Of a stretch of 64,000 nt of DNA, positions 4,610 to 50,614 are shown one piece after another (the stretch's first letter is position 1; the number at the start of each line of letters is the position of its first letter). The translations under genes and the position numbers were made by a program. Source of the stretch: a virus. Below the pieces are notes generated by a model. That model saw only the letters and a program-made list of their open reading frames with translations, was not told the origin of the DNA and made no database searches. Location of the stretch: IMG/VR virus record IMGVR_UViG_3300014913_000007, positions 62,001 to 126,000 of that record. One strand, given 5' to 3'.

Positions 4610-5227
4610 CTACGCTCCTAAAAACTCCATATCAACAGATACATTTACCTTCATAGTAGGTATACCTATTTTATCTATTAAACCTAGTTTTTTGGCTTGT
4701 TTACTAGTTAAATACCAATTAGTATTACCTCTTTCTTTTAACTTATCAAAAAAGTATTTACGATCCAAAGCACAATTAACAGCTAATATTTTGTATAATT
4801 CTTTTTTCAATCTTTCTGAATTTTCTACAGATACTTTCATATCTTCTACTTTTCCAATAGTTCCAGCACTAGCATCATGTACCATTATGGTGCAATTTGA
4901 ATCTGCAAATCTGTATCCAGGGGTACCACTACTCAGTAAAACTGCTCCACAACTCATGGCTTTACATAATCCGACTGTTGCTACTGGTTTTGAACTTCTC
5001 TCGATTAGAGATAACATTCCCATGAGTGTATATATTTGCCCTCCTGGGCTATCTATTAATATAGGAATAATAGGTTGATCCGGGTTGGACTCTGCCCTAT
5101 CAAACTTCTCTCTAAATATTTCAAAAGACCTGGAATTAAAATCAGTAACATTAATTACTGTAGGCATATCGAATAAGTCTGATTTTCTATAATTTATAGA
5201 GTTGTCTACTTCAGTTATGATCTTCAT
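4610..5227 (-). CDS. ClpP-like serine protease
   Basis: 205 residues of the S14 fold. ILIDSPGGQIYTLMGML matches the family segment that forms the oxyanion region, Ser92 in KAMSCGAVLLSSG is the expected nucleophile and His117 in IMVHDASAG the base. The end segment TSKQAKKLGLIDKIG matches the family C-terminal EA..LGLID block. In phages such proteins act as prohead proteases or as true Clp proteases. Here the gene lies among metabolic genes rather than beside a capsid or portal gene, which favours an intracellular proteolysis role (inference). Confidence 0.85.
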   Translation of the reverse strand: MKIITEVDNSINYRKSDLFDMPTVINVTDFNSRSFEIFREKFDRAESNPDQPIIPILIDSPGGQIYTLMGMLSLIERSSKPVATVGLCKAMSCGAVLLSSGTPGYRFADSNCTIMVHDASAGTIGKVEDMKVSVENSERLKKELYKILAVNCALDRKYFFDKLKERGNTNWYLTSKQAKKLGLIDKIGIPTMKVNVSVDMEFLGA

Positions 5228-13688: not shown

Positions 13689-13717
13689 TTGACTTTAATA
13701 TTTCAATGTACTATAGT
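13689..13717 (+). promoter_or_regulatory. Promoter of tRNA island 1
   Basis: TTGACT at 13689-13694, 17-base spacer ending TGTAC, TATAGT at 13712-13717. The same TGTACTATAGT core precedes islands 2 and 3, and a near copy precedes island 4. Confidence 0.75.
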
Positions 13718-13723
13718 AAATAT

Positions 13724-13950
13724 GTTGCAGGTAATAAATATAGGGATACTCCTATAATTAGCCTGCTTTTTTTATGAGTTAATATGATGGAAAAGAAACT
13801 TCAAATACATACAAATATCAATTCTAATATTATGGTGCCGTTCATGGTACCCATGTTTATTGCCCCTGCGGGGCAAGTACAACCAGTGCCATTTTGGTGC
13901 TAATAAATTATTAATCAAACAATTTAGTTCGGGTAGAAGAAAGCAAATTT
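13724..13950 (+). ncRNA. Hairpin-rich leader of tRNA island 1
   Basis: About 225 transcribed bases with no open reading frame of note. It contains a perfect stem, TTGCCCC with GGGGCAA around TGC (about 13859-13875), flanked by GGTGCC/GGTACC-type partners. Its last part (CAAACAATTTAGTT, then GGGTAGAAG) resembles the leader of island 4 at 30445-30470. It may be a processed 5' piece or a regulatory leader. Confidence 0.45.
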
Positions 13951-14025
13951 GGCGGGAAGGACGTTGGCTTCCAGTAGTGTCTCATAAGCATTATTACGCT
14001 GGTTCAATTCCAGCTTCCGCAACCA
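13951..14025 (+). tRNA. tRNA with CAU anticodon (Met, possibly initiator-like)
   Basis: Anticodon loop CTCATAA, T-stem GCTGG/CCAGC, CCA end encoded. The acceptor pairs well except position 1-72 (G with A), a mismatch typical of bacterial initiator tRNA; the anticodon stem lacks the three G-C pairs of initiators. An Ile CAU (lysidine) tRNA is the alternative. Confidence 0.65.
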
Positions 14026-14044
14026 TTTTATTAACTTAAATTCC

Positions 14045-14103
14045 TAGGATTACCATTTTCAGTGATTAGCTTGCAACACTTTGATCTTTAAGTGGTAGTC
14101 CTA
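14045..14103 (+). other. Long hairpin between tRNA-Met and tRNA-Phe
   Basis: Positions 14045-14058 pair with 14090-14103 over 14 base pairs (two wobbles), with an inner AGTG/CACT stem. It is not a tRNA: the enclosed region lacks D and T arms. It may be a processing signal or a separate small RNA. Confidence 0.55.
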
Positions 14104-14110
14104 CTTTTCT

Positions 14111-14185
14111 GCTCCGGTAGCTTAACTGGTAAGAGCGTTCGGTTGAAGCCCGAAAGATGGAGATCGACACCTCTCTGGAGCACCA
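14111..14185 (+). tRNA. tRNA-Phe (GAA)
   Basis: Acceptor GCTCCGG/CTGGAGC, anticodon loop TTGAAGC within stem TTCGG/CCGAA, CCA encoded. The T arm is irregular. Confidence 0.8.
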
Positions 14186-14186
14186 T

Positions 14187-14258
14187 ACACTTCTAGTCTT
14201 GGGACAAAGGAAGCCTCCAAAACTTCTAAGCAGAGTTCGAATCTTTGGGAGTGTGCCA
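14187..14258 (+). tRNA. tRNA-Trp (CCA)
   Basis: Acceptor ACACTTC/GGAGTGT, anticodon loop CTCCAAA, T-stem CAGAG/CTTTG with TTCGAAT loop, discriminator G and encoded CCA. The D arm is short and poorly paired and position 31-39 is mismatched, so it may be atypical. Confidence 0.75.
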
Positions 14259-14259
14259 T

Positions 14260-14333
14260 GCTAGATTAGTTTAATGGTAGAACAGGAGTTTTACATGCTC
14301 TTAGCGGTGGTTCGATTCCATCATCTAGTACCA
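14260..14333 (+). tRNA. tRNA-Val (UAC)
   Basis: Acceptor GCTAGAT/ATCTAGT, anticodon loop TTTACAT, T-stem GGTGG with loop TTCGATT, encoded CCA. Confidence 0.82.
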
Positions 14334-14348
14334 TATTTTTATTTTTAT

Positions 14349-14420
14349 TCCGGTGTAACTCAGTGGTAGAGTGGTCGTCTGTTAAACGACTTGTCTGTAG
14401 TTCGATCCTACACACCGGAG
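14349..14420 (+). tRNA. tRNA-Asn (GUU), copy 1
   Basis: Acceptor TCCGGTG/CACCGGA, anticodon loop CTGTTAA within GTCGT/ACGAC. CCA is not encoded. Confidence 0.9.
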
Positions 14421-14427
14421 CTTTTAT

Positions 14428-14503
14428 TGTATCTTAGCTTAATTGGCAAAGCGTGGAACTGTTAATTCCAAAGATTTAGGTTCGAACCCTAAAGATACAG
14501 CCA
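14428..14503 (+). tRNA. tRNA-Asn (GUU), copy 2
   Basis: Acceptor TGTATCT/AGATACA, anticodon loop CTGTTAA within TGGAA/TTCCA, encoded CCA. It differs from copy 1 throughout its stems, so it is not a recent duplicate. Confidence 0.9.
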
Positions 14504-14504
14504 T

Positions 14505-14582
14505 CTGGATGTAGCTCAGCCTGGTCAGAGTGCTCGTTTTGGATACGAGTTGTCGGGGATTCGAATTCCTCCATCCAGACCA
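14505..14582 (+). tRNA. tRNA-Pro (UGG), copy 1
   Basis: Acceptor CTGGATG/CATCCAG, anticodon loop TTTGGAT within CTCGT/ACGAG, encoded CCA. Confidence 0.9.
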
Positions 14583-14592
14583 TTTTTTTTAC

Positions 14593-14668
14593 CTGGCATT
14601 GGTGTTTAACAGTAGCATGGTGGCTTTGGGAGCCAGCGGAGAAAGTGCAAATCTTTCATGCCAGACCA
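14593..14668 (+). tRNA. tRNA-Pro (UGG), copy 2
   Basis: Acceptor CTGGCAT/ATGCCAG, anticodon loop TTTGGGA, encoded CCA. The T loop is TGCAAAT rather than TTCAAAT and pair 27-43 is mismatched, so it may be decaying or specialised. Confidence 0.75.
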
Positions 14669-14688
14669 CTTTTTTAGAACAGTCATTC

Positions 14689-14717
14689 TTTACATTAAAA
14701 GCTATATAATATATACT
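14689..14717 (+). promoter_or_regulatory. Promoter for the HNH gene within island 1
   Basis: TTTACA at 14689-14694, 17-base spacer, TATACT at 14712-14717, with ATG at 14725. The transcript should be leaderless. Confidence 0.65.
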
Positions 14718-14724
14718 ATACTTA

Positions 14725-15174
14725 ATGGATACCAAGTACTGTGATAAATGTAAGAACGACCTGCCAGTTGATACTTTCCAAAGACGTGGGAAAAACGGAT
14801 TACAGCCTTGGTGTAAGAACTGTCAAAAAGAGTATGATAGACAACGTTACATAGATAATAAAGAATACATCTGTAAGCAAAATAAAGACGGTAGAGAGCG
14901 TAGAAGAGAAAGAAGTAGAAACGAAGTAACAAGCTATCTATTAGAGCATCCTTGTGTTGATTGCGGTGAGAAAGATATAATAGTACTCAGCTTTGATCAT
15001 GTTAGAGGAGAAAAGGAATTTAACATATCAGATGCGATTAAGGATGGTATGAAGTGGGAGAGGATAGCGAAAGAAATAAAGAAGTGTAAAGTTAGATGCT
15101 TCAACTGTCACATGAGAAAGACTGCAAAACAGCAGGGCTGGTTCAAATACAACAAATCAAATAAGAAAAAATAA
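14725..15174 (+). CDS. HNH endonuclease inserted in tRNA island 1
   Basis: 149 residues. An N-terminal zinc ribbon (CDKC, then CKNCQ) is followed by a charged helix and the HNH core: CVDCG at about 73, LSFDHVRG at about 88 and CFNCHM at about 127. The family cuts DNA and often spreads as a homing element. It separates tRNA-Pro from tRNA-Ala, has its own promoter and no ribosome site. Its Lys-rich end overlaps a repeat that recurs after the structured RNA at 15561-15730. Confidence 0.85.
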   Translation: MDTKYCDKCKNDLPVDTFQRRGKNGLQPWCKNCQKEYDRQRYIDNKEYICKQNKDGRERRRERSRNEVTSYLLEHPCVDCGEKDIIVLSFDHVRGEKEFNISDAIKDGMKWERIAKEIKKCKVRCFNCHMRKTAKQQGWFKYNKSNKKK

Positions 15175-15189
15175 CAAACAAAATTTAGG
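15163..15189. repeat. Direct repeat, left copy
   Basis: An A-rich stretch around the HNH stop followed by CAAAATTTAGG. A near-identical copy (two one-base gaps) lies at 15749-15776. The pair brackets tRNA-Ala, tRNA-Gln, tRNA-Ile and the structured RNA. Confidence 0.75.
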
Positions 15190-15261
15190 GGATATAGTTT
15201 AAATGGGAAACGCCAGCCTTGCAAGCTGAGGTTCTGGGTTCGATTCCCAGTTTCTCCACCA
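15188..15261 (+). tRNA. tRNA-Ala (UGC)
   Basis: Anticodon loop CTTGCAA, T-stem CTGGG/CCCAG, encoded CCA. One acceptor mismatch and one at 27-43. Confidence 0.85.
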
Positions 15262-15269
15262 ATTTTTAA

Positions 15270-15344
15270 CCGGGGTTAGTGAAGCGGTTATCACCTCAGA
15301 CTTTGAATCTGAGATCGAGAGTTCGAATCTCTCACCCCGATCCA
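15270..15344 (+). tRNA. tRNA-Gln (UUG)
   Basis: Anticodon loop CTTTGAA within TCAGA/TCTGA, T-stem GAGAG/CTCTC, encoded CCA. The first acceptor pair is open (C with A), in line with the weak first pair of Gln tRNAs. Confidence 0.85.
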
Positions 15345-15402
15345 CTTTGGCCGATCCTGTACACCACTTATAAACTGACATATGTGACGGTAATCGCTAT
15401 TC

Positions 15403-15437
15403 ATTTGGCGATCTTTTGGCCGATCTTTTGGCCGATC
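15403..15437. repeat. Short tandem repeat (12-base unit)
   Basis: Three successive units ending GATC (TTTTGGCCGATC type, the first one base shorter), with a related TTTGGCCGATC at 15347. It lies between tRNA-Gln and tRNA-Ile. Confidence 0.8.
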
Positions 15438-15442
15438 TTTAC

Positions 15443-15518
15443 GGGGGAGTAACTCAGGGGTAAGAGTGCCAGTCTGATATACTGGTGGTCGAAGGTTCAA
15501 CTCCTTCCTCCCCTACCA
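15443..15518 (+). tRNA. tRNA-Ile (GAU)
   Basis: Acceptor GGGGGAG/CTCCCCT, anticodon loop CTGATAT within CCAGT/ACTGG, T-stem GAAGG/CCTTC, encoded CCA. Confidence 0.92.
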
Positions 15519-15525
15519 TTTTCAA

Positions 15526-15554
15526 TTGACTTACATTTATATGTAGGTTATACT
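15526..15554 (+). promoter_or_regulatory. Promoter of the structured RNA
   Basis: TTGACT at 15526-15531, 17-base spacer, TATACT at 15549-15554. The expected start is at GG 15561-15562, exactly where the terminal helix begins. Confidence 0.75.
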
Positions 15555-15560
15555 TAACTA

Positions 15561-15730
15561 GGAAACACCAGTTAGAAGTTACTAGAAGCTTGGTGGTGTA
15601 CTTCTCTGGCATAGATCTATAGTAATTCTAGTTGAGCAAAATGTACGAAGCATTCACTATAGGTACCAGAGTTAGTGGTTTAGGGGGTGTTTAATGAGGC
15701 GAAGCCCTCCGACTGGTGTTTCTTTTTTCT
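15561..15730 (+). ncRNA. Structured RNA of about 165 nt, family not recognised
   Basis: The ends pair perfectly: GAAACACCAGT (15562-15572) with ACTGGTGTTTC (15712-15722), followed by six Ts (15723-15728). Inside are AGAAGT (15574)/ACTTCT (15600), CTCTGG (15604)/CCAGAG (15666), the palindrome ATAGATCTAT and a GAGGC/GCCCTC hairpin near 15696. It has its own promoter and no coding frame. It lies directly after a tRNA island. It does not show tmRNA, RNase P or 6S landmarks that I can find. Confidence 0.65.
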
Positions 15731-15765
15731 TTCTTCAAGAAATCAAAAAGAAAAAAATAACAAAA
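15723..15765. terminator. T-rich/A-rich hairpin, probably bidirectional terminator
   Basis: A run of T and TTTCTT pairs with the A-rich stretch AAGAAA...AAAAAGAAAA downstream. It would end the structured RNA on the plus strand and the AEP-like gene (stop at 15797) on the minus strand. Confidence 0.55.
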
Positions 15766-15776
15766 CAAAATTTAGG
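15749..15776. repeat. Direct repeat, right copy
   Basis: Near-identical to 15163-15189, ending CAAAATTTAGG, about 590 bases away. Confidence 0.75.
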
Positions 15777-15796
15777 AATTATAATTTGATAGCTAT

Positions 15797-16348
15797 TTAG
15801 GTAAGAATACTTAAATCGTTGACGAAACACGACCAATTTTTGGCTTTTTGATGATACCCTAAAGGTAATTTAATGGGTAATTCATAGTAAAAATCATTGG
15901 TTACCTTATCTTGGTTTGGGAAGAAATCCATTCCTGTTTGATCTTTACCTATAAAATAACTTCTAGCTTCCTTTAAGGATATAGCTTTATCAAACAACAC
16001 CCAAACATGGTACCTATCTGGTGCTCCGCTTTTTTCTATAAGTATATTACTATGTATCTGTTTAGCCCAGAAAAATGCTTTAACTAAGTACTCCTCTCTT
16101 ATATCATCTACATCAAAACATAGGAACTTAACTGTCTGTGTTGAAAGTTCAGTTGGAAAGACACCCAAGGTTATCTTCCCTGCTAGATGTTTCTCGATTA
16201 ATTCTTTAGTAAGTGGAGCATATACTCTTTCATAGTAGTTCTCCCTTAATCTCCCAGAAGCATCCCTCTGCCAAGGATGCGGAGTCATTAAACAATAGGC
16301 ATCTTTTCTATGACAAAAAGTGTTATATAAGAAATCTACTTTACTCAT
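15797..16348 (-). CDS. Archaeo-eukaryotic primase (PrimPol/TOTE-type) domain protein
   Basis: 183 residues. KFLCFDVDD supplies the paired acidic metal ligands, EKSGAPDRYHVWVLFDKAIS matches the His-containing strand of AEP primases, and FFPNQDKV with ELPIKLPLGYHQKA matches the conserved end seen in the primase part of TOTE conflict-system proteins. The gene is only the catalytic domain; no helicase or nuclease partner is adjacent. It starts within the end of the next gene upstream (8-base overlap). It could prime DNA or make tags, undetermined. Confidence 0.75.
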   Translation of the reverse strand: MSKVDFLYNTFCHRKDAYCLMTPHPWQRDASGRLRENYYERVYAPLTKELIEKHLAGKITLGVFPTELSTQTVKFLCFDVDDIREEYLVKAFFWAKQIHSNILIEKSGAPDRYHVWVLFDKAISLKEARSYFIGKDQTGMDFFPNQDKVTNDFYYELPIKLPLGYHQKAKNWSCFVNDLSILT

Positions 16349-28713: not shown

Positions 28714-28742
28714 TTGACATTACTTAGTATTTATAATATAAT
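28714..28742 (+). promoter_or_regulatory. Promoter of the interrupted HNH gene
   Basis: Consensus TTGACA at 28714-28719, 17-base spacer, TATAAT at 28737-28742, then six bases to ATG 28749 (leaderless). Confidence 0.78.
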
Positions 28743-28748
28743 AGTTAA

Positions 28749-29117
28749 ATGTCCAAACTTAAAGTCTGTAAACAATGTGGAAAAACTTTCCCCAAATCAG
28801 GTATGTACTTAGGTAAGTGAAGGAACTTCTGTAATAGGAGTTACTTTCTTTTATGCTCCTCAACTAGGTTGGCCAGACAGTATTTACTGGAGAAACATGG
28901 AAACAAGTGTTTTCAATGTGAAGTAACCGGATGGAATGGACGGCCAGGACCTGTAGTTTTAGATCATATAAATGGAAACCCTTATGATCATAGTTTAGAA
29001 AATATTAGATTGCTCTGTTGTAATTGTGATGCACAAACTAATACATATAAAAACAAAAATAAAGGTAAAGGCAGGCACACTAGGAGATTACGATACAAAC
29101 AAGGTAAAAGCTACTAA
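28749..29117 (+). pseudogene. HNH endonuclease interrupted by in-frame TGA
   Basis: Codons 1-23 read MSKLKVCKQCGKTFPKSGM then YLGK, an N-terminal zinc ribbon half. TGA lies at 28818-28820. The same frame continues RNFCNRSYFLLCSSTRLA, then the HNH core: CFQCEVTGWNG, VVLDHINGNP, ENIRLLCCNCDAQTNTYK. Both halves fit one protein of about 122 residues, so the TGA replaces a sense codon, most simply Trp (TGG) or Arg. A TTG at 28869 could restart the nuclease part. Decay, read-through or an error are the options. Confidence 0.75.
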
Positions 29118-30356: not shown

Positions 30357-30494
30357 GTTATGTTAATATCAACTCTAAAACATATACTATTCGATATAAA
30401 GCGGTTCCATAACCGCCATAAAAGACGCTTTGCGTCTACAATATAATCAAACAAACAATTCAATTAGGGTAGAAGTAATTAAGTAAATAAATTT
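30357..30494 (+). ncRNA. Leader of tRNA island 4 with paired hairpins
   Basis: Two GC-rich perfect hairpins, GCGGTT/AACCGC (about 30401-30416) and AGACGC/GCGTCT (about 30423-30437), then a stretch (CAAACAATTCAATT, GGGTAGAAG) that resembles the leader end of island 1. Confidence 0.5.
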
Positions 30495-30563
30495 GGCTGT
30501 ATAGGTTAATGGTAGACTAGGAGACTGTCGATCTCTTTGCCGGGTTCGATTCCCGTACAGCCG
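30495..30563 (+). tRNA. tRNA-Asp (GUC)
   Basis: Acceptor GGCTGTA/TACAGCC, anticodon loop CTGTCGA within GGAGA/TCTCT. A short tRNA of 69 bases; CCA not encoded. Confidence 0.85.
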
Positions 30564-30679: not shown

Positions 30680-30734
30680 TAATGTATAGAATACTAGACA
30701 TTATCTGCTATACTGTCTAAGATTCTATACATTA
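30680..30734 (+). repeat. Long perfect inverted repeat between tRNAs
   Basis: Arms TAATGTATAGAAT (30680-30692) and ATTCTATACATTA (30722-30734) pair perfectly, and TAGACA/TGTCTA add six more pairs inside around a 13-base loop. It is AT-rich with no T tail, so it is more likely a processing or structural element than a terminator. Confidence 0.8.
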
Positions 30735-37939: not shown

Positions 37940-39266
37940 TTTTCTTGACTCCTTTAGAGAAACTAGTTTTAATTGGATCTTCTGATAAGTTAAAAATCTC
38001 CTTTACCTTAGCTATAGCCTGCCCTGTAGTAATATTTTGCTCTCCAGGTGTGAGCTTGCTCTCTTCCTTATCAAACCCTAATAATTCTTGTGCCCTTTCC
38101 TGAAATCGACCATACCTTATATATTTAAACTGGTCTCCAGCTACTTCTCTAATATTTGAGTAAGCTATAGCACGTTTCTCTTTCCGTTTATCATACATAC
38201 TTTTAGCGTTCAGTGGTGTAGTATCTAACACTTTAGGTTCTGATACTATTTGTTCAATTGCCATGTCCCTAGAAATTTCTAACTTTCTTACAGGTAAGTA
38301 CTGCTGTATAAAGTAATCCAAGTTATATCTACTAGACTCATAGGGTATAATTTGTTGAATCTTCTTAGAATCAATAGACATATTTTCTATTCTAAGTCTG
38401 TTGCTAGGTACTAGTTTGCTGGCAGTCTCTCCATAATATGTTTGAATCTTCTGTACTAATTCAAACAACTTAATGGTATTCCCAGAAGATACATTGTAAA
38501 TTCCTTGTCGCGTCTCTACTACACAATCAACCACGACTTTTGACAAATAATTTACATGAATTAGGTCTATTTCTGTGCTTGGTGAGAATACTTCTATCTC
38601 CTCTTCTCTTTTCACAATCTTATCTAAGTAGTAATGAAAATATCCTGGCCAGTAGTTGCTTCTTCTAAATTCGTTATGATGTTTCCTTCCGTATACTTCA
38701 GTAGGTCTAAGGATACAGTAAGGTACCTTTAACATTCCCAATACCTTCTGAACAGTATCTTCTACATACAGTTTCCCTATACCCGTATAATTTGCTGGTA
38801 CTAGTGCGTCACTTTCATTGGAATTCTCAATACCATTTTCGCCATAAACGCTCCAGGAGGATATATACAAAAAGTAAGGTCTAACGTCATCATCTTCAAA
38901 TAAAGGCATAGTGGCGTATGCATTCATTGTATTTACAGCTGCTAAGATTGATTTAGCATCGTTTTCTATATCACCTAGTCCATCTGTAGGTCCTTCAAAT
39001 CCAGCAGCATATATTATTACGTCAATGGCTTGAGCAGCAAGAAAGGCTGTAATACCTTCTGAGCTGGTGAGGCTCATGTGTACTTGCTGTACTACTGCAT
39101 CATATCCTTCAGTATCTATTGTTACACCGTTAAGTCTCTTATCTAAGGACCATATTCTTACGTTTGATTGATTAGATAGTCTCCTAATAATGTTCCTACC
39201 AATGAAACCGTTACCGCCTAAAACGGCTATATGAATTTTGTCTCTTATGTGGTGTGATCTAATCAT
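37923..39266 (-). CDS. NAD-dependent sugar epimerase/dehydratase (extended SDR)
   Basis: 447 residues. IAVLGGNGFIGRNIIRRL is the Rossmann nucleotide-binding loop, SSWSVYGENG holds the catalytic Ser/Thr position and YTGIGKLYVED the YxxxK pair. About 120 residues beyond the usual end are of unknown role. Such enzymes modify NDP-sugars. It lies between the polymerase and three sugar-related genes, so a phage glycosylation pathway is likely. Confidence 0.85.
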   Translation of the reverse strand: MIRSHHIRDKIHIAVLGGNGFIGRNIIRRLSNQSNVRIWSLDKRLNGVTIDTEGYDAVVQQVHMSLTSSEGITAFLAAQAIDVIIYAAGFEGPTDGLGDIENDAKSILAAVNTMNAYATMPLFEDDDVRPYFLYISSWSVYGENGIENSNESDALVPANYTGIGKLYVEDTVQKVLGMLKVPYCILRPTEVYGRKHHNEFRRSNYWPGYFHYYLDKIVKREEEIEVFSPSTEIDLIHVNYLSKVVVDCVVETRQGIYNVSSGNTIKLFELVQKIQTYYGETASKLVPSNRLRIENMSIDSKKIQQIIPYESSRYNLDYFIQQYLPVRKLEISRDMAIEQIVSEPKVLDTTPLNAKSMYDKRKEKRAIAYSNIREVAGDQFKYIRYGRFQERAQELLGFDKEESKLTPGEQNITTGQAIAKVKEIFNLSEDPIKTSFSKGVKKNELPK

Positions 39267-39269
39267 ATG

Positions 39270-39566
39270 TTAATCCTTACTATCCTTGCTATCCTTACTA
39301 TTCTGACTTATAGCTGAACTAAACGCTTGGTCCCAATTAATTTTCCTTGGATATTTTACTTTGACTCCTTCAAGTGATTTGATTACTTCTTCTAGTGATT
39401 TCCTTCCCCAGTTATAATCACACAAAGTCTCCACTAAAGAGTCCCTAGCGAACCTATTAGTTTCTAATACCAGCATATGTTTAAGTAATGCATCTATAGT
39501 TTCCTCTAAGGGTTTATTCTTATATTTATATTCTTCTAATATATTCTTATAAAAATCTGTTGACAT
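39270..39566 (-). CDS. Hypothetical protein
   Basis: 98 residues, helical, ending in a SKDSKDSKD repeat. A promoter lies at 39601-39629. First gene after that promoter, followed by the epimerase after three bases. Not recognised. Confidence 0.6.
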   Translation of the reverse strand: MSTDFYKNILEEYKYKNKPLEETIDALLKHMLVLETNRFARDSLVETLCDYNWGRKSLEEVIKSLEGVKVKYPRKINWDQAFSSAISQNSKDSKDSKD

Positions 39567-39600
39567 ACTTATCCCTATTGAGTTTCCTATTAATAACTAC

Positions 39601-39629
39601 ATTATACAGTACTTAAGAATCTTTTACAA
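39601..39629 (-). promoter_or_regulatory. Internal promoter before the epimerase-polymerase genes
   Basis: Minus strand TTGTAA (39629-39624), 17-base spacer, TATAAT (39606-39601). Confidence 0.65.
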
Positions 39630-39953
39630 CCATTTATCAGATAAGCTAAATTTTAGAATATTATCCTCGTAATAACTAAAACCTACTGCCAATGTCTGAT
39701 TACCATCATTATTAAGAATAATTCTTAAAGTGATATCTCCCTCCTTATACTTCATACCATTTATAAGGTAGGGGAAAAAGTCTTTAACTACATTGTAATG
39801 ATCTTCGTGCATATTCAAGGTGTTAGGTAGGGTACTAGACTCTTGCATCTCTGTTACAAATGAATTTATAAGATATACCACTAATAAAGCTAACTCTTTA
39901 TTAAGATTAAACGTCTCTACATCTAACTGCCTACTGTCGTTAGTTATGTTCAT
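39624..39953 (-). CDS. Hypothetical protein
   Basis: 109 residues; helical N-terminal half (KELALLVVYLINSFVTEM), strand-rich end. Its stop overlaps the internal promoter. Not recognised. Confidence 0.6.
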   Translation of the reverse strand: MNITNDSRQLDVETFNLNKELALLVVYLINSFVTEMQESSTLPNTLNMHEDHYNVVKDFFPYLINGMKYKEGDITLRIILNNDGNQTLAVGFSYYEDNILKFSLSDKWL

Positions 39954-44287: not shown

Positions 44288-45502
44288 TTATAATTTCTTA
44301 GTTCTATATTGGGGATTACCTACTTTAACAAACGCAGCGTCCTCTATGTCTCTTTTTAAATCAGGATCATCTAACCTATTTAACAATTTGGTAATCTTTG
44401 TACTACTTATAGATGCTACTTCACCTAATTGATCAGGAGTAAGTAAGTTAATGACTCGCTCGGTGTCATAATATCTTCTACTAGAACATGTGGGGTTTAA
44501 AAAGTGCGTGTCATTGGCCACAGGAGTCTCTGGATCTGCCTCGATCCGTTGAGATACCCACAGTTTAATACTATCCTTGTAACCCTTTAAAGCTTTCTCA
44601 CGTAGTAAGATCTTCTGAAGTTCAACTATTGCTAGCTCATCCTTCATTGCGGTTATAGGTATAAAATCCGTTTCAAAGTTTCCACACATTAATGCTCCAT
44701 ACTGAGGACATTTATCTCTATAAGCACACCAGTGACAAGTATCATGTACAGTTCCGTCCGGCCTATCTTTTGGTACATTTGCAAAGTATTCTTTAATTGC
44801 TGTAAATATTGAAGATATTTGTCTTCTAAATTCCATCTGAGCTATTTCGGTCCTGTAGGAGGTTACACTCTGACCTAACCTTACATACTTCAATTCAAGT
44901 ATGCGGTTTGGATATTGTGGATACATTACCGCAGCTGCTAAATCATACATAGAGAGCTGTTCATCTATTTTTGCTTCATCCCAAGACATTGCCATTTTCG
45001 ATGTTTTATAATCTGTTATCTTTACAGTAGTATCGTCTATTTCTGAAACTTTATCTATAAATCCGTAGATATTTACTCCCTCAGGAGTCGTAATGTCAAA
45101 CTCGACTTCTGCATCAATTACTTTCTCATCATAGTCCAGACCTAAAAGTTCTGCCCTTACCATATCTGCACCTGAGTCAAAGAACTCCATAGAGTCTATG
45201 AAAGTTTTTGACATGTAATCCCTAAAAATATCCACGTATTCTTCCACTTCATCTACTGTTAATACTCTTGGATTCTGTATTAAGGAGATGTTTGCTCTCT
45301 CCAGAGCGTAATGTACTGAGTTTCCTAATGAAAACGAAGTGTTAGCTGGTTTAGGTAATTTTTCGGTGTAGTTCAAATGAAACTGTAATAAACATTGTAA
45401 CCAAAGTTTCATCATTGATGCCGATAACCTAATCTTTTTAGATTTAGTAAACTTCTTACTTGCTTTAATTACTTCATCTTTAATTTTCTTTGCTTTCGCC
45501 AT
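44288..45502 (-). CDS. RecB/Cas4-type PD-(D/E)XK nuclease with iron-sulfur cluster
   Basis: 404 residues from the ATG at 45502 (a TTG at 45514 is the alternative). IRLSASMMKLWLQCLLQFHLNY is the family start, with the first Cys. DAEVEF..IYGFIDKV and VKITDYKTSK supply Glu, Asp and D-K catalytic residues. CHWCAYRDKCPQYGA gives the remaining Cys of a 4Fe-4S cluster, as in AddB/Cas4. It probably resects DNA ends during recombination or late replication, next to RuvC. Confidence 0.85.
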   Translation of the reverse strand: MAKAKKIKDEVIKASKKFTKSKKIRLSASMMKLWLQCLLQFHLNYTEKLPKPANTSFSLGNSVHYALERANISLIQNPRVLTVDEVEEYVDIFRDYMSKTFIDSMEFFDSGADMVRAELLGLDYDEKVIDAEVEFDITTPEGVNIYGFIDKVSEIDDTTVKITDYKTSKMAMSWDEAKIDEQLSMYDLAAAVMYPQYPNRILELKYVRLGQSVTSYRTEIAQMEFRRQISSIFTAIKEYFANVPKDRPDGTVHDTCHWCAYRDKCPQYGALMCGNFETDFIPITAMKDELAIVELQKILLREKALKGYKDSIKLWVSQRIEADPETPVANDTHFLNPTCSSRRYYDTERVINLLTPDQLGEVASISSTKITKLLNRLDDPDLKRDIEDAAFVKVGNPQYRTKKL

Positions 45503-45547
45503 ATTAATTCCCAACGATAAACATAAAATAGTTAACTATATTTTAAC

Positions 45548-46045
45548 CTATTCACCCTGTTTAGTCAACTTCATAACTCCCCAATCTGCCATTAAAATAG
45601 CATCAGTAATATCATTATGACTTGATAGGATAAACCCTTCTAACTCATACTTTTCTACTGCCCAATCAAATACATGTCCCTTATCCAATTTAGCTATACC
45701 TAATACAGGTTTTACTACATCTTTCTTTGCCGTGGCTTGGTGACACATCCTAATAGGTATATTGTCTGGAATTGCTATAAGTGTTACACCATAGAAACCT
45801 CCCAACAGTTTTACTGAGTTCAAGTTCCTAGTCTGGTGAAGTTCTTCAATGACTACTACATCTGGTTTATGTATCTGAAGTGCTTCCTCTATATTATTAG
45901 TTAAAACTTGAAATCTTTTCCTATGTGAATCCTCTTTCTTCTTTAACCTTGTTTGCCAACTTCCACAATCCACAAGATTGTATCCATCCTCAATAACTGC
46001 ATATCCAGTTCTAGTTGCTAAATCTAACCCTAAAACTCTAACCAC
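45548..46045 (-). CDS. RuvC-like Holliday junction resolvase
   Basis: 165 residues with GTG start. [17 protein letters not shown] is the RNase H-fold first strand with the catalytic Asp, [14 protein letters not shown] supplies the Glu, and [14 protein letters not shown] the closing Asp pair. Resolves branched DNA before packaging. It overlaps the DnaJ-like gene by eight bases. Confidence 0.85.
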
Positions 46046-46856
46046 CTTTTTTCCATCCTTTCTTTAGTAGTTCATTTAACAATGCACAATCTTCTATATT
46101 CAATTTGGATAAGTCTGGTAAATCTATTATTGGCATTATACCTAAACATCCTGGAGTAACTTTCCATCCCTCGTTTCCTAGTCCAGAAAACTGTAGTAAT
46201 TTACCTATACTATACCTAGGAGGTATAGTAAAGTTAACTTCCTTTTTCTTATGATATACAAGCTTACCCTTACAGATTCTACAAGAACGTTCAGTAGTCC
46301 AACCAACTTTGTTACACCTTGTACAAGACTTTGTAGTATTTATAAACCCATGTGAAGTCTTTATAGACCTAGAGATCATTCCATAACCTTTACATGTCGC
46401 ACATTCTATCCATCTACTAGCATCACCGAGGCAATTATCACAACAAGCTAATACCTCAAGTTCTAAACTTATACTTCCACCTGTAAGTGCCTCCAATAAA
46501 GTTATAGGTATATCTAGCGGGGCAATCTCTCCCAACCTAATAGGTTGAGAACCTGGCCTCGGCCTCTTTTGAGGTCTAGGTTGTTGTTCAAAGCGTCTAT
46601 TAAAAAACTCAGCAAAATCTACTGGATTAGATCTCCCTGAAAAATTACGTCCATTTAGATCATTACCTAAATAATCCTTCTTAGTAATAGTATCATACGC
46701 CAAAGTAATTTCCTTGAACTTCTCCTCTGCGTTCTTATTCTCTCTATTTACGTCTGGATGATACTTTTTAGCTAACTTTCTATATGCTTTTTTAATATCG
46801 TCCTCAGATGTTGAAGTATCCACACCTAATATTTTATACGCTTCACTTAAATTCAT
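46038..46856 (-). CDS. DnaJ-like co-chaperone
   Basis: 272 residues from the ATG at 46856, two bases after the stop of the upstream gene (upstream Met codons would overlap it). The J domain at about 1-70 has YHPDVN. A short Gly/Arg/Pro linker follows. The zinc domain at about 135-225 has four CxxCxG-type repeats ([30 protein letters not shown]). A truncated C-terminal domain ends the protein. Like lambda-type replication, it may load or remodel the helicase with host DnaK. Confidence 0.88.
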
Positions 46857-48250: not shown

Positions 48251-49795
48251 TTAAAATAAGTCATCATCATCTACTGGTAAAATATACTCTTCTTTTACAG
48301 TTACTTGTTCAATATCTGTATGTTTTATTACATTTTCTACTTTTTCTACTTTAAATGACTCATTAATCAATCTAGCATATTCTGCAGGTGTTGTTGTTTC
48401 AACATTGATTGCTGAATCCTCACCAGTCTCCTCATTAATGTCATCAATGAAATCTTCTGCTTCCTGTAATAGGTTACAAGGTTTCCAAAATCTTACAGGT
48501 GTTCTTGCCTTTCCACCCGATCTAGTTTTCCAGCTTGTTAACCAATGGGTTCCGTATTTACGGTGATCTCCTGCATATTCTAGTTCTTTTACTGTTTTAG
48601 CTCTAAACTCTATTAGATTATTACAATACCTGAGGATTCTGTCACTATCTGCTACCTTAAGGTTCCTAGTATTTATCTGACAGGCAGCAAGAACTGGGAT
48701 ATTTAACTTTCCAGCTGTAGTTTTTAATGCTACAGTTAAGTCACCTAAAACCTGATCCTCCCTTCTATTCTTAATCTGACCATTATCCATATTAGTATCT
48801 AATTTGATGTAATCAAAAATCACTAAACCTATATTGTGTTTAGCTTTGTGGTATTGAATTCTACTACACAATTTACTTGCATTAAATTCAGGCATGTATT
48901 CGTGGAAAAAGGTCTCTCCATTTTCTATTTCAGTTATAACTCTATCAAGTATTAACTTACTTTTTGGATCATGATAGGCAATACCATTTGAAATATCTCG
49001 CTCCCTTATCATTGATCTCATGGCTAGTAATCTAGCTGCATCTTCTTCTGAATACATTTCAGTACTTATGAAGTATACTGGGACTCTATGTGCATTTGCA
49101 AATGCTACTTCCTCAGCTATATTTAATAGAACCGTTGACTTCCCTGCCCCAGCTATGCCAGCAACTACCGTTAAGGCTCCTGGCATTAACCCATTAATCG
49201 CCTCATCTAGTTTTTTAAATCCAGTGTGTAACCCTCGAATATTGGTAGGATTAGCAGCCCATTTCTCTACATACTCACGTATAGTGGTATTAATGTGAAC
49301 TGCTTCCTGTTCCTTGTCTTCATATCCTCTTAATTTATTGATCCTAGCAAGTACCTCATCCATTAATTCATTTGAATCAAGTGATTCTTGCACGTCCGTT
49401 CTATTCTGCTGTACTATTGTATGTGAATCCTTTATTGCCTCATTTAAAGCGAATTTCTTATACGCTTCTCTTACTTTGTTTAGATATAGTTTATAGTTGC
49501 TAAGCTTAAAGTTATGTTCACAAACCATCATTAGGTAGTCTGCTCCAACTCCTGAGTCTTTTAAACCAAGCTTGGCACATTCTATGTAAACAGTATCTAT
49601 ATCTAAATTTTTAAGGTCAGTTTGATCAGATAGTAGACACATGGCTGTATATATAATCCTATGTGGTTCATATAAGAAATACTCAGATCCAATAAGTTGT
49701 CTAGTCTCTATAAGTAAATCTTCATTACTAAAAATTAAACCTAGCAACCCTCTCTCATACTGAGAGTAAAACTTTGATCTCTCGTCATTATTCAT
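48251..49795 (-). CDS. Replicative DNA helicase, DnaB/RecA family
   Basis: 514 residues. The N-terminal domain (about 10-115) is DnaB-like. Walker A GIAGAGKST is at 213-221; a Walker B candidate IGLVIFDYIK is near 345. The Gln/Arg sensor region LNIPVLAACQIN follows. It unwinds DNA at the fork together with the adjacent primase. Confidence 0.9.
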   Translation of the reverse strand: MNNDERSKFYSQYERGLLGLIFSNEDLLIETRQLIGSEYFLYEPHRIIYTAMCLLSDQTDLKNLDIDTVYIECAKLGLKDSGVGADYLMMVCEHNFKLSNYKLYLNKVREAYKKFALNEAIKDSHTIVQQNRTDVQESLDSNELMDEVLARINKLRGYEDKEQEAVHINTTIREYVEKWAANPTNIRGLHTGFKKLDEAINGLMPGALTVVAGIAGAGKSTVLLNIAEEVAFANAHRVPVYFISTEMYSEEDAARLLAMRSMIRERDISNGIAYHDPKSKLILDRVITEIENGETFFHEYMPEFNASKLCSRIQYHKAKHNIGLVIFDYIKLDTNMDNGQIKNRREDQVLGDLTVALKTTAGKLNIPVLAACQINTRNLKVADSDRILRYCNNLIEFRAKTVKELEYAGDHRKYGTHWLTSWKTRSGGKARTPVRFWKPCNLLQEAEDFIDDINEETGEDSAINVETTTPAEYARLINESFKVEKVENVIKHTDIEQVTVKEEYILPVDDDDLF

Positions 49796-50262
49796 TATTG
49801 ACCTGTATTACCCCTTACAGACAGTTCCTTCTTCAATGCATTAGCTATTTCCATAACCATTTCTGGTGTTTTATGGAACAACGTTGCCTCACTCTCAGCT
49901 TTATACCAGTTCTCCTCTAAAACAGCTAAGTTAGGATTATCCTCTAACGCTTGTGCAGCCTTCTCCTTTACCGTTAATTTTGACTTCTGCAGCTTTATCA
50001 TAGTCTTTCCTAGTTCTAACTCATACCTTCTCTTAGTAGAATCTCTCTTAACTGTCCGCATGTTTGATTGTAATTGTAAATATAACTGATATCTAGTTAG
50101 GGTGAAGATCAATGAGGAGATTTTCTGGGCTGATAAGGTTCCTAGCATGGTTCCATCAATGCTCAAAGCCTCTTTTAATGCCTCTGGTTGAGGAGTTATG
50201 GATCCTAAACCTGTTTCTTCTAAGCATCTATTCAAACTCTTAAAATGTTGATCTTCAGACAT
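49795..50262 (-). CDS. Hypothetical protein next to the helicase
   Basis: 155 residues, helical, with charged repeats (KMIKLQKSKLTVKEKAAQALEDN). Its stop overlaps the helicase start. Position suggests a helicase loader or replication accessory, with no motif to prove it. Confidence 0.55.
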   Translation of the reverse strand: MSEDQHFKSLNRCLEETGLGSITPQPEALKEALSIDGTMLGTLSAQKISSLIFTLTRYQLYLQLQSNMRTVKRDSTKRRYELELGKTMIKLQKSKLTVKEKAAQALEDNPNLAVLEENWYKAESEATLFHKTPEMVMEIANALKKELSVRGNTGQ

Positions 50263-50272
50263 TAAAACTCTC

Positions 50273-50614
50273 CTATGAATTAACTATTCTAGCCTTAACT
50301 TCCTCTACAGTTAGTTTTGCTATCTCATCATATTTAAAGTATACCAGAGTATACCCATTTTTACCACACCATTCTTGCTTTAAATTGTCCCTAGCGTTAG
50401 ATTTATAAAAATTCTCTATCATACCATGAAAAAACCGAATAAATTTATAATGCTGTTGCCCTTGAACTTCTATCATAACTTTTAAAGAAGGTATGCAGAA
50501 ATCAAAAAAGAGACGAGTACCATACATAGTCTCATAACACTGACTCTCAATATCATAATTTGGTAGAGCTTTAGATATTAACTCATCTATTGTTATTTCA
50601 AGTTTACTAATCAA
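50273..50614 (-). CDS. Small PD-(D/E)XK-type endonuclease, TTG start
   Basis: 113 residues starting at a TTG that overlaps the TGA of the RecA-like gene. RLFFDFCIPSLKVMIEVQGQQHY gives the D-x-E-x-Q nuclease core; NARDNLKQEWCGKNGYTLVYFKYDE matches the C-terminal part of Vsr-like/DUF559-type enzymes. It may process DNA ends or be a free-standing homing relative. A family without named targets here. Confidence 0.72.
   Translation of the reverse strand: MISKLEITIDELISKALPNYDIESQCYETMYGTRLFFDFCIPSLKVMIEVQGQQHYKFIRFFHGMIENFYKSNARDNLKQEWCGKNGYTLVYFKYDEIAKLTVEEVKARIVNS

Follow-up and report, generated by a model that had tools for sequence, protein, structure and literature searches.

Introduction

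Non-coding RNAs recur in the tRNA islands of phages, and GOLLD, ROOL, and the RNAs C and D of phage T4 are examples. The T4 RNAs C and D are small stable RNAs that are encoded with the phage tRNA cluster and processed from the tRNA transcript. GOLLD and ROOL are phage or prophage RNAs that are often located near tRNA islands (PMC12286853). A Y RNA has been proposed for the Listeria phage CKA15 (PMC12282133), and a phiKZ non-coding RNA (ncRNA) of about 100 nt, found by Grad-seq, is thought to be processed from a 3' UTR and to lack a start site of its own (PMC8545117).

This study analyzed a 64,000-nt stretch of phage DNA (hereafter, the window; positions 62001-126000 of a 153,389-base viral record with 34% G+C), in which a predicted ncRNA lies beside a tRNA island. 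Like GOLLD and ROOL, this window RNA is phage-encoded, predicted to be structured, and adjacent to a tRNA island. However, GOLLD often exceeds 800 nt whereas the window RNA comprises 168 nt, and the folds of GOLLD and ROOL are elaborate and conserved whereas the interior of the window RNA folds no better than random sequence and the RNA has no Rfam match. It resembles the T4 RNAs C and D, as these are generally described, in being a small RNA with a phage tRNA cluster, but differs from those processed RNAs in having its own promoter. The paired ends of this small phage RNA and the presence of RtcB in the phage genome recall the Y RNAs, although the phage has no Ro/TROVE protein and the RNA matches no Rfam family. 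Similar to the phiKZ RNA, it would be a phage ncRNA of no known function, with the difference that it is predicted to have its own start. Phage tRNA clusters are already known to encode small RNAs of this kind, to which the window RNA would add a new, unrelated-looking member. A compact RNA with its own promoter would be easier to test than the large island RNAs.

Organization of the locus

The coordinates of the locus are listed in Table 1. The promoter begins 8 nt past the end of tRNA-Ile, and the predicted RNA thus adjoins island 1.

Table 1. Features of tRNA island 1 and the adjoining region (window positions)
Feature	Position	Strand	Basis or remark
tRNA island 1	about 13951..15518		nine tRNAs (ARAGORN) and an HNH-type gene
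HNH-type gene	14725..15174		phage relatives annotated as HNH endonuclease
tRNA-Ile	15443..15518		final tRNA of island 1
Promoter TTGACT-17-TATACT	15526..15554	+	same class as promoters heading tRNA islands
-35 element TTGACT	15526..15531	+	
-10 element TATACT	15549..15554	+	
Single-copy predicted ncRNA of about 168 nt	15561..15728	+	sequence signals, no Rfam family
P1 5' arm GGAAACACCAGUU	15561..15573	+	pairing probability 1.00
P1 3' arm GACUGGUGUUUCU	15711..15723	+	predicted pairing with 15561..15573
Perfect 11-bp core of P1, GAAACACCAGT/ACTGGTGTTTC	15562..15572/15712..15722	+	
Possible hairpin P2 (AGAAGU/ACUUCU)	15574..15605	+	ties with minimum-energy fold; L074 does not favour it
Core GGTGGTGTACTTCTCTGGCA	15592..15611	+	16/20 common to tentative relative L074
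Possible long arm (CUCUGG/CCAGAG and AUCUAUAGU/ACUAUAGGU)	15604..15671	+	predicted in window sequence only
31-aa ORF	15694..15789	+	ATG at 15694, AGGGGG 6 nt upstream
U-rich tract, possible transcription end	15723..15735	+	sequence; not canonical terminator
Primase-like gene	15797..16348	-	Pfam match AEP-TOTE; convergent with predicted RNA; stop at 15797

Several further observations were made in and around the islands. A decayed copy of the 3' end of the HNH gene, together with the first bases of tRNA-Ala, lies directly behind the RNA (about 15736-15790); 15736-15776 is 88% identical to 15150-15189 over 41 bases and represents the remnant of a duplication. A tRNA-like sequence with CAT at 13951-14022 was unlisted by ARAGORN and scored 21.5 bits with Rfam, below the cut-off. 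Leaders resembling each other (AATCAAACAA..., GGGTAGAAG..., AAATTTGG) precede the first tRNA in island 1 and in island 3 (about 13910-13952 and 30445-30498), and this likeness possibly reflects a shared processing or antitermination signal.

Promoter, end helix, and U-rich tract

The spacing of the two promoter elements (17 nt) and their positions place the expected transcription start at about 15561. The 13-bp end helix begins 7 nt past TATACT, and the predicted start coincides with its first base, in agreement with the sequence-only reading, which had proposed a consensus promoter with its start site on the helix. Counted as TTGACW-17-TATNNT, the promoter class has 10 occurrences in the window, where 0.96 would be expected; those at 13689, 15526, 23354, and 30322 precede tRNA islands or the predicted RNA. 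The promoter at 15526 serves nothing else close by because the downstream gene is convergent.

The 11-bp perfect terminal helix described earlier was found with a pairing probability of 1.00, and flanking G-U pairs extend it to 13 bp (P1). The T-tail that had been read along with it as a terminator stood in part: T6 (15723-15728) follows straight after the helix and opens the U-rich tract, but the helix is long-range and closes a 139-nt interior, and the 3' signal therefore differs from a standard terminator hairpin. The terminator scan listed none on either strand at 15720-15770. These results also bear on the proposal that the locus yields an antisense or read-through RNA controlling the convergent primase-like gene, with the helix and T-tract as a two-way stop. 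The convergent arrangement would fit such control, as would the T/A-rich stretches that both strands show at 15720-15770; nevertheless, it would leave the placement of the start site on the helix unexplained, and no standard terminator is present there on either strand, which makes this explanation very unlikely.

To compare the combined arrangement with chance, we defined a joint signal as an 11-bp arm that includes 4 or more G+C, is followed by a T-tract, and has a properly spaced promoter ahead of it; both strands were scanned. The joint signal occurred once in the 153-kb phage, whereas it was present in 0 of 20 dinucleotide-shuffled genomes and, in a second run, in 3 of 100 (mean, 0.03). 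A long inverted repeat that just happens to follow a promoter would account for the locus if those three shuffled genomes, and an interior no better than random, were taken as a guide, but such a coincidence is highly improbable given that the locus stands beside a tRNA island and that its promoter class is non-random.

Interior fold and coding capacity

Folded alone, the inner 139 nt yielded a z score of +0.5 relative to shuffled sequence, that is, no better than shuffles. The whole RNA reached a z score of -2.2, owed solely to the end helix, and -1.5 when the flanks were included. The several compatible internal helices noted earlier carry no weight because the interior without P1 folds like shuffled sequence, and we do not retain them as support.

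The plus-strand ORFs across the predicted RNA span 20-37 codons, all encoding at most 37 aa, which largely agrees with the earlier statement that there is no coding frame, except that the 31-aa ORF lies behind AGGGGG. Coding by this region is unlikely. The transcript might be the mRNA of the 31-aa peptide with a structured leader, and the AGGGGG placed 6 nt ahead of the ATG would suit this role. However, this motif is only a 4-base Shine-Dalgarno match by the scan used, the product is of low complexity (MRRSPPTGVSFFFLQEIKKKKITKQNLGIII), its frame runs across the T-tract and a repeat, and the tentative relative L074 has no ATG at the corresponding place. A peptide mRNA is, on this evidence, quite improbable.

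Known RNA families and search for relatives

The predicted RNA had no relevant Rfam match at gathering scores or at E values up to 10, and neither ARAGORN nor the Rfam models found a tRNA or tmRNA at 15520-15780. The Rfam covariance models of GOLLD, ROOL, 6S RNA, RNase P RNA, and SRP RNA did not match. The comparison with Rfam that the sequence-only reading had proposed thus assigned the RNA to no known class, and its remark that landmarks of tmRNA, RNase P RNA, 6S RNA, and GOLLD are absent agrees with Rfam, even at E 10, and with ARAGORN.

End-to-end helices are common to tmRNA, 6S, RNase P, Y, and retron RNAs, and RtcB is linked with Ro/Y RNA loci in bacteria. The end-to-end helix of the window RNA and the RtcB gene of the phage could accordingly be read as traces of a known class from which the sequence has diverged, such as a tmRNA piece or a 6S, RNase P, Y, or retron RNA. 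In addition to the missing Rfam and tmRNA matches, the viral record has no RVT_1 reverse transcriptase for a retron and no Ro/TROVE protein for a Y RNA, this record being possibly incomplete. A diverged known class is highly improbable and, at the profile level, largely refuted.

No clear homologue of the predicted RNA was found in Rfam, the phage records, or the viral-contig and GTDB scans. The RNA had no blastn match in 50,697 phage records, and the exact P1 arm pattern had 0 matches across viral contigs. A close relative of the phage, sought via its primase-like, DNA polymerase, RNR, HNH, and S2 genes, was likewise not found; the best RNR identity was about 41%, and the phage is an orphan within the collections searched. 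The tRNA islands of distant phages, searched with blastn, nhmmer, and covariance models, yielded a single candidate in L074, a portion of a phage contig of 99.9 kb that was reached through the HNH gene.

A covariance model built from the window RNA alone (R1), with roughly calibrated E values, gave one candidate, L074:3359-3459 (21.4 bits, E 0.017); chance matches, including hairpins, reach 23-24 bits with this model. A 24-bit match in G028 was dropped; it is within the chance range, lacks the shared core pattern, and has no tRNA island seen around it. The L074 segment sits in a tRNA island close behind an HNH gene, abuts a tRNA-Asn-like sequence (read by eye and not called by ARAGORN), and has a perfect 16-bp end helix (3356-3371/3442-3457). 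The core GGTGGTNNNCTTCTCTGNCA occurs at the same offset, about 20 nt inside the end helix, in the window RNA and in L074:3356-3457. Against shuffles, such an anchored core match arose once in 20,000 for this pair and, with all 72 helix-enclosed segments allowed for, 8 times in 3000 (p about 0.003).

L074 keeps the P1 helix, and in 7 of the 13 pairs both partners differ; this count is in part circular, since L074 was found with the help of its end helix. The two segments are alike in having a long perfect end helix beside tRNAs and in sharing the 20-nt core, but their inner folds differ, with P2 costing about 9 kcal/mol in L074, and neither a promoter nor a T-tract was seen at L074:3356-3457. 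These comparisons suggest that this segment is a tentative relative of the window RNA. A two-member covariance model of the window RNA and L074 found no third member. An exact scan for the core returned 15 matches in viral contigs, of which 14 had no matching end helix or tRNA island and the fifteenth was L074's own contig; in GTDB it returned 7 matches, none with a matching end helix or tRNA island. Apart from the L074 contig, these matches are attributed to chance.

Inverted repeats in phage tRNA islands

Inverted repeats with arms of at least 13 bp and loops of 30-250 were counted in 18 phage tRNA-island loci (L049-L085) and in other phage loci. The results revealed 20 in 179 kb of islands versus 21 in 1439 kb elsewhere, an enrichment of about 8-fold (p 2e-9) in raw counts, with G+C of 0.40 in the islands and 0.36 in the other loci. 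Six of the 20 island repeats enclose a tRNA, and others abut tRNA ends. The L074 island contains several helix-enclosed segments, and in the window phage two further stems of 13-14 bp lie between tRNAs (30680-30734; 14044-14104, with one G-U pair). The window RNA is likewise a helix-enclosed, non-coding segment beside tRNAs; its perfect arm of 11 bp is below the 13-bp cut-off used for the enrichment. It may exemplify a common feature of the islands, here equipped with a promoter; alternatively, this feature may be a processing signal.

The segment could, on these grounds, be a spacer of the tRNA island instead of a functional RNA, namely a long-stem segment that is at most an RNase III-type cleavage site between tRNA precursors, or a recombination scar. 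The enrichment, the repeats that abut or enclose tRNAs, and the two further stems of the window phage fit such a spacer, and the decayed HNH repeat beside the RNA is a sign of past rearrangement. Nevertheless, the segment follows the final tRNA of island 1 and does not separate two tRNAs, and it has its own well-placed promoter and U-tract; a spacer is possible but unlikely. It is improbable, though conceivable, that the tRNA islands of large phages harbor a class of end-sealed RNAs that is dispersed and evolves fast, with the window RNA as a promoter-bearing member, and that these stable RNAs either help take over translation or serve as decoys against tRNA-attacking host nucleases. As a pattern, the enrichment is simple and can be checked, and it could direct a systematic search either for such RNAs or for signals of tRNA processing.

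The L074 island also contains a permuted tmRNA (4701-5057, 97.8 bits), flanked by two long-stem segments (4612-4703 and 5102-5195). A tRNA-like look of other L074 segments was set aside, as Rfam gave no support.

Proposed nature and action of the predicted RNA

We give a little better than even credence to a stand-alone phage gene for an end-sealed ncRNA of about 168 nt, as predicted from the sequence signals. A separate RNA gene is favored because the joint signal is unique in 153 kb with 0.03 expected, because the promoter class is tenfold enriched and common to tRNA islands, and because the start falls on the helix base with P1 at full pairing probability. The short ORFs, the convergent downstream gene, and the tentative relative, which has an end helix of 16 bp and sits in the tRNA island of another phage, argue in the same direction. 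A separate gene is disfavored because the interior is not above shuffles, the terminator is non-canonical, no clear homologue was found in the collections searched, and phage tRNA islands commonly contain long-stem segments that lack promoters. The earlier proposal of a new phage small RNA is partly supported, by the promoter, helix, U-tract, and lack of an Rfam family, but not by the interior.

Transcription would start at about 15561 from a promoter type that also heads tRNA islands and would stop in the U-rich tract. The first and last 13 nt would pair, burying both RNA ends in the helix. We propose that the transcript is stable because it seals its own ends, and it should then be as durable as the neighboring tRNAs. 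The RNA may act through its interior by binding a host or phage protein or a part of the translation machinery during infection, although such action through a partner is doubtful. The tie to tRNA use or host shut-off suggested by the sequence-only reading derives from position and gained no support: an initial excess of core pairing with phage translation starts disappeared against internal coding windows, leaving no pairing preference for these starts. A role in host shut-off is a guess.

Other genes of the phage

The phage encodes ribosomal protein uS2 (viral record G000:42003-42908; L008:2003-2905; Pfam E 3e-74). Phage-borne uS2 looks rare because it matched only 9 of 50,697 phage records, and several of these appear to be bacterial DNA. 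Further RNA and translation genes are located at G000:35925-37133, 38398-39771, 45481-46650, and 49562-50536, and those named are an RtcB ligase, a CCA-adding enzyme, an RNA ligase, and a radical SAM protein; the last is RlmN-like by eye and matched Pfam as radical SAM only, below the cut-off. An HNH-like frame at window positions 28749-29117, located behind a perfect TTGACA-17-TATAAT promoter (28714-28742), has a single in-frame TGA at codon 24 and may be a broken gene, a sequencing error, or a case of recoding. The helicase-like and PhoH-like genes (G000:20702-23275 and 138296-140764) carry LAGLIDADG homing-endonuclease domains, the first also a Hint domain, and because of the homing-endonuclease domains both genes probably hold inteins.
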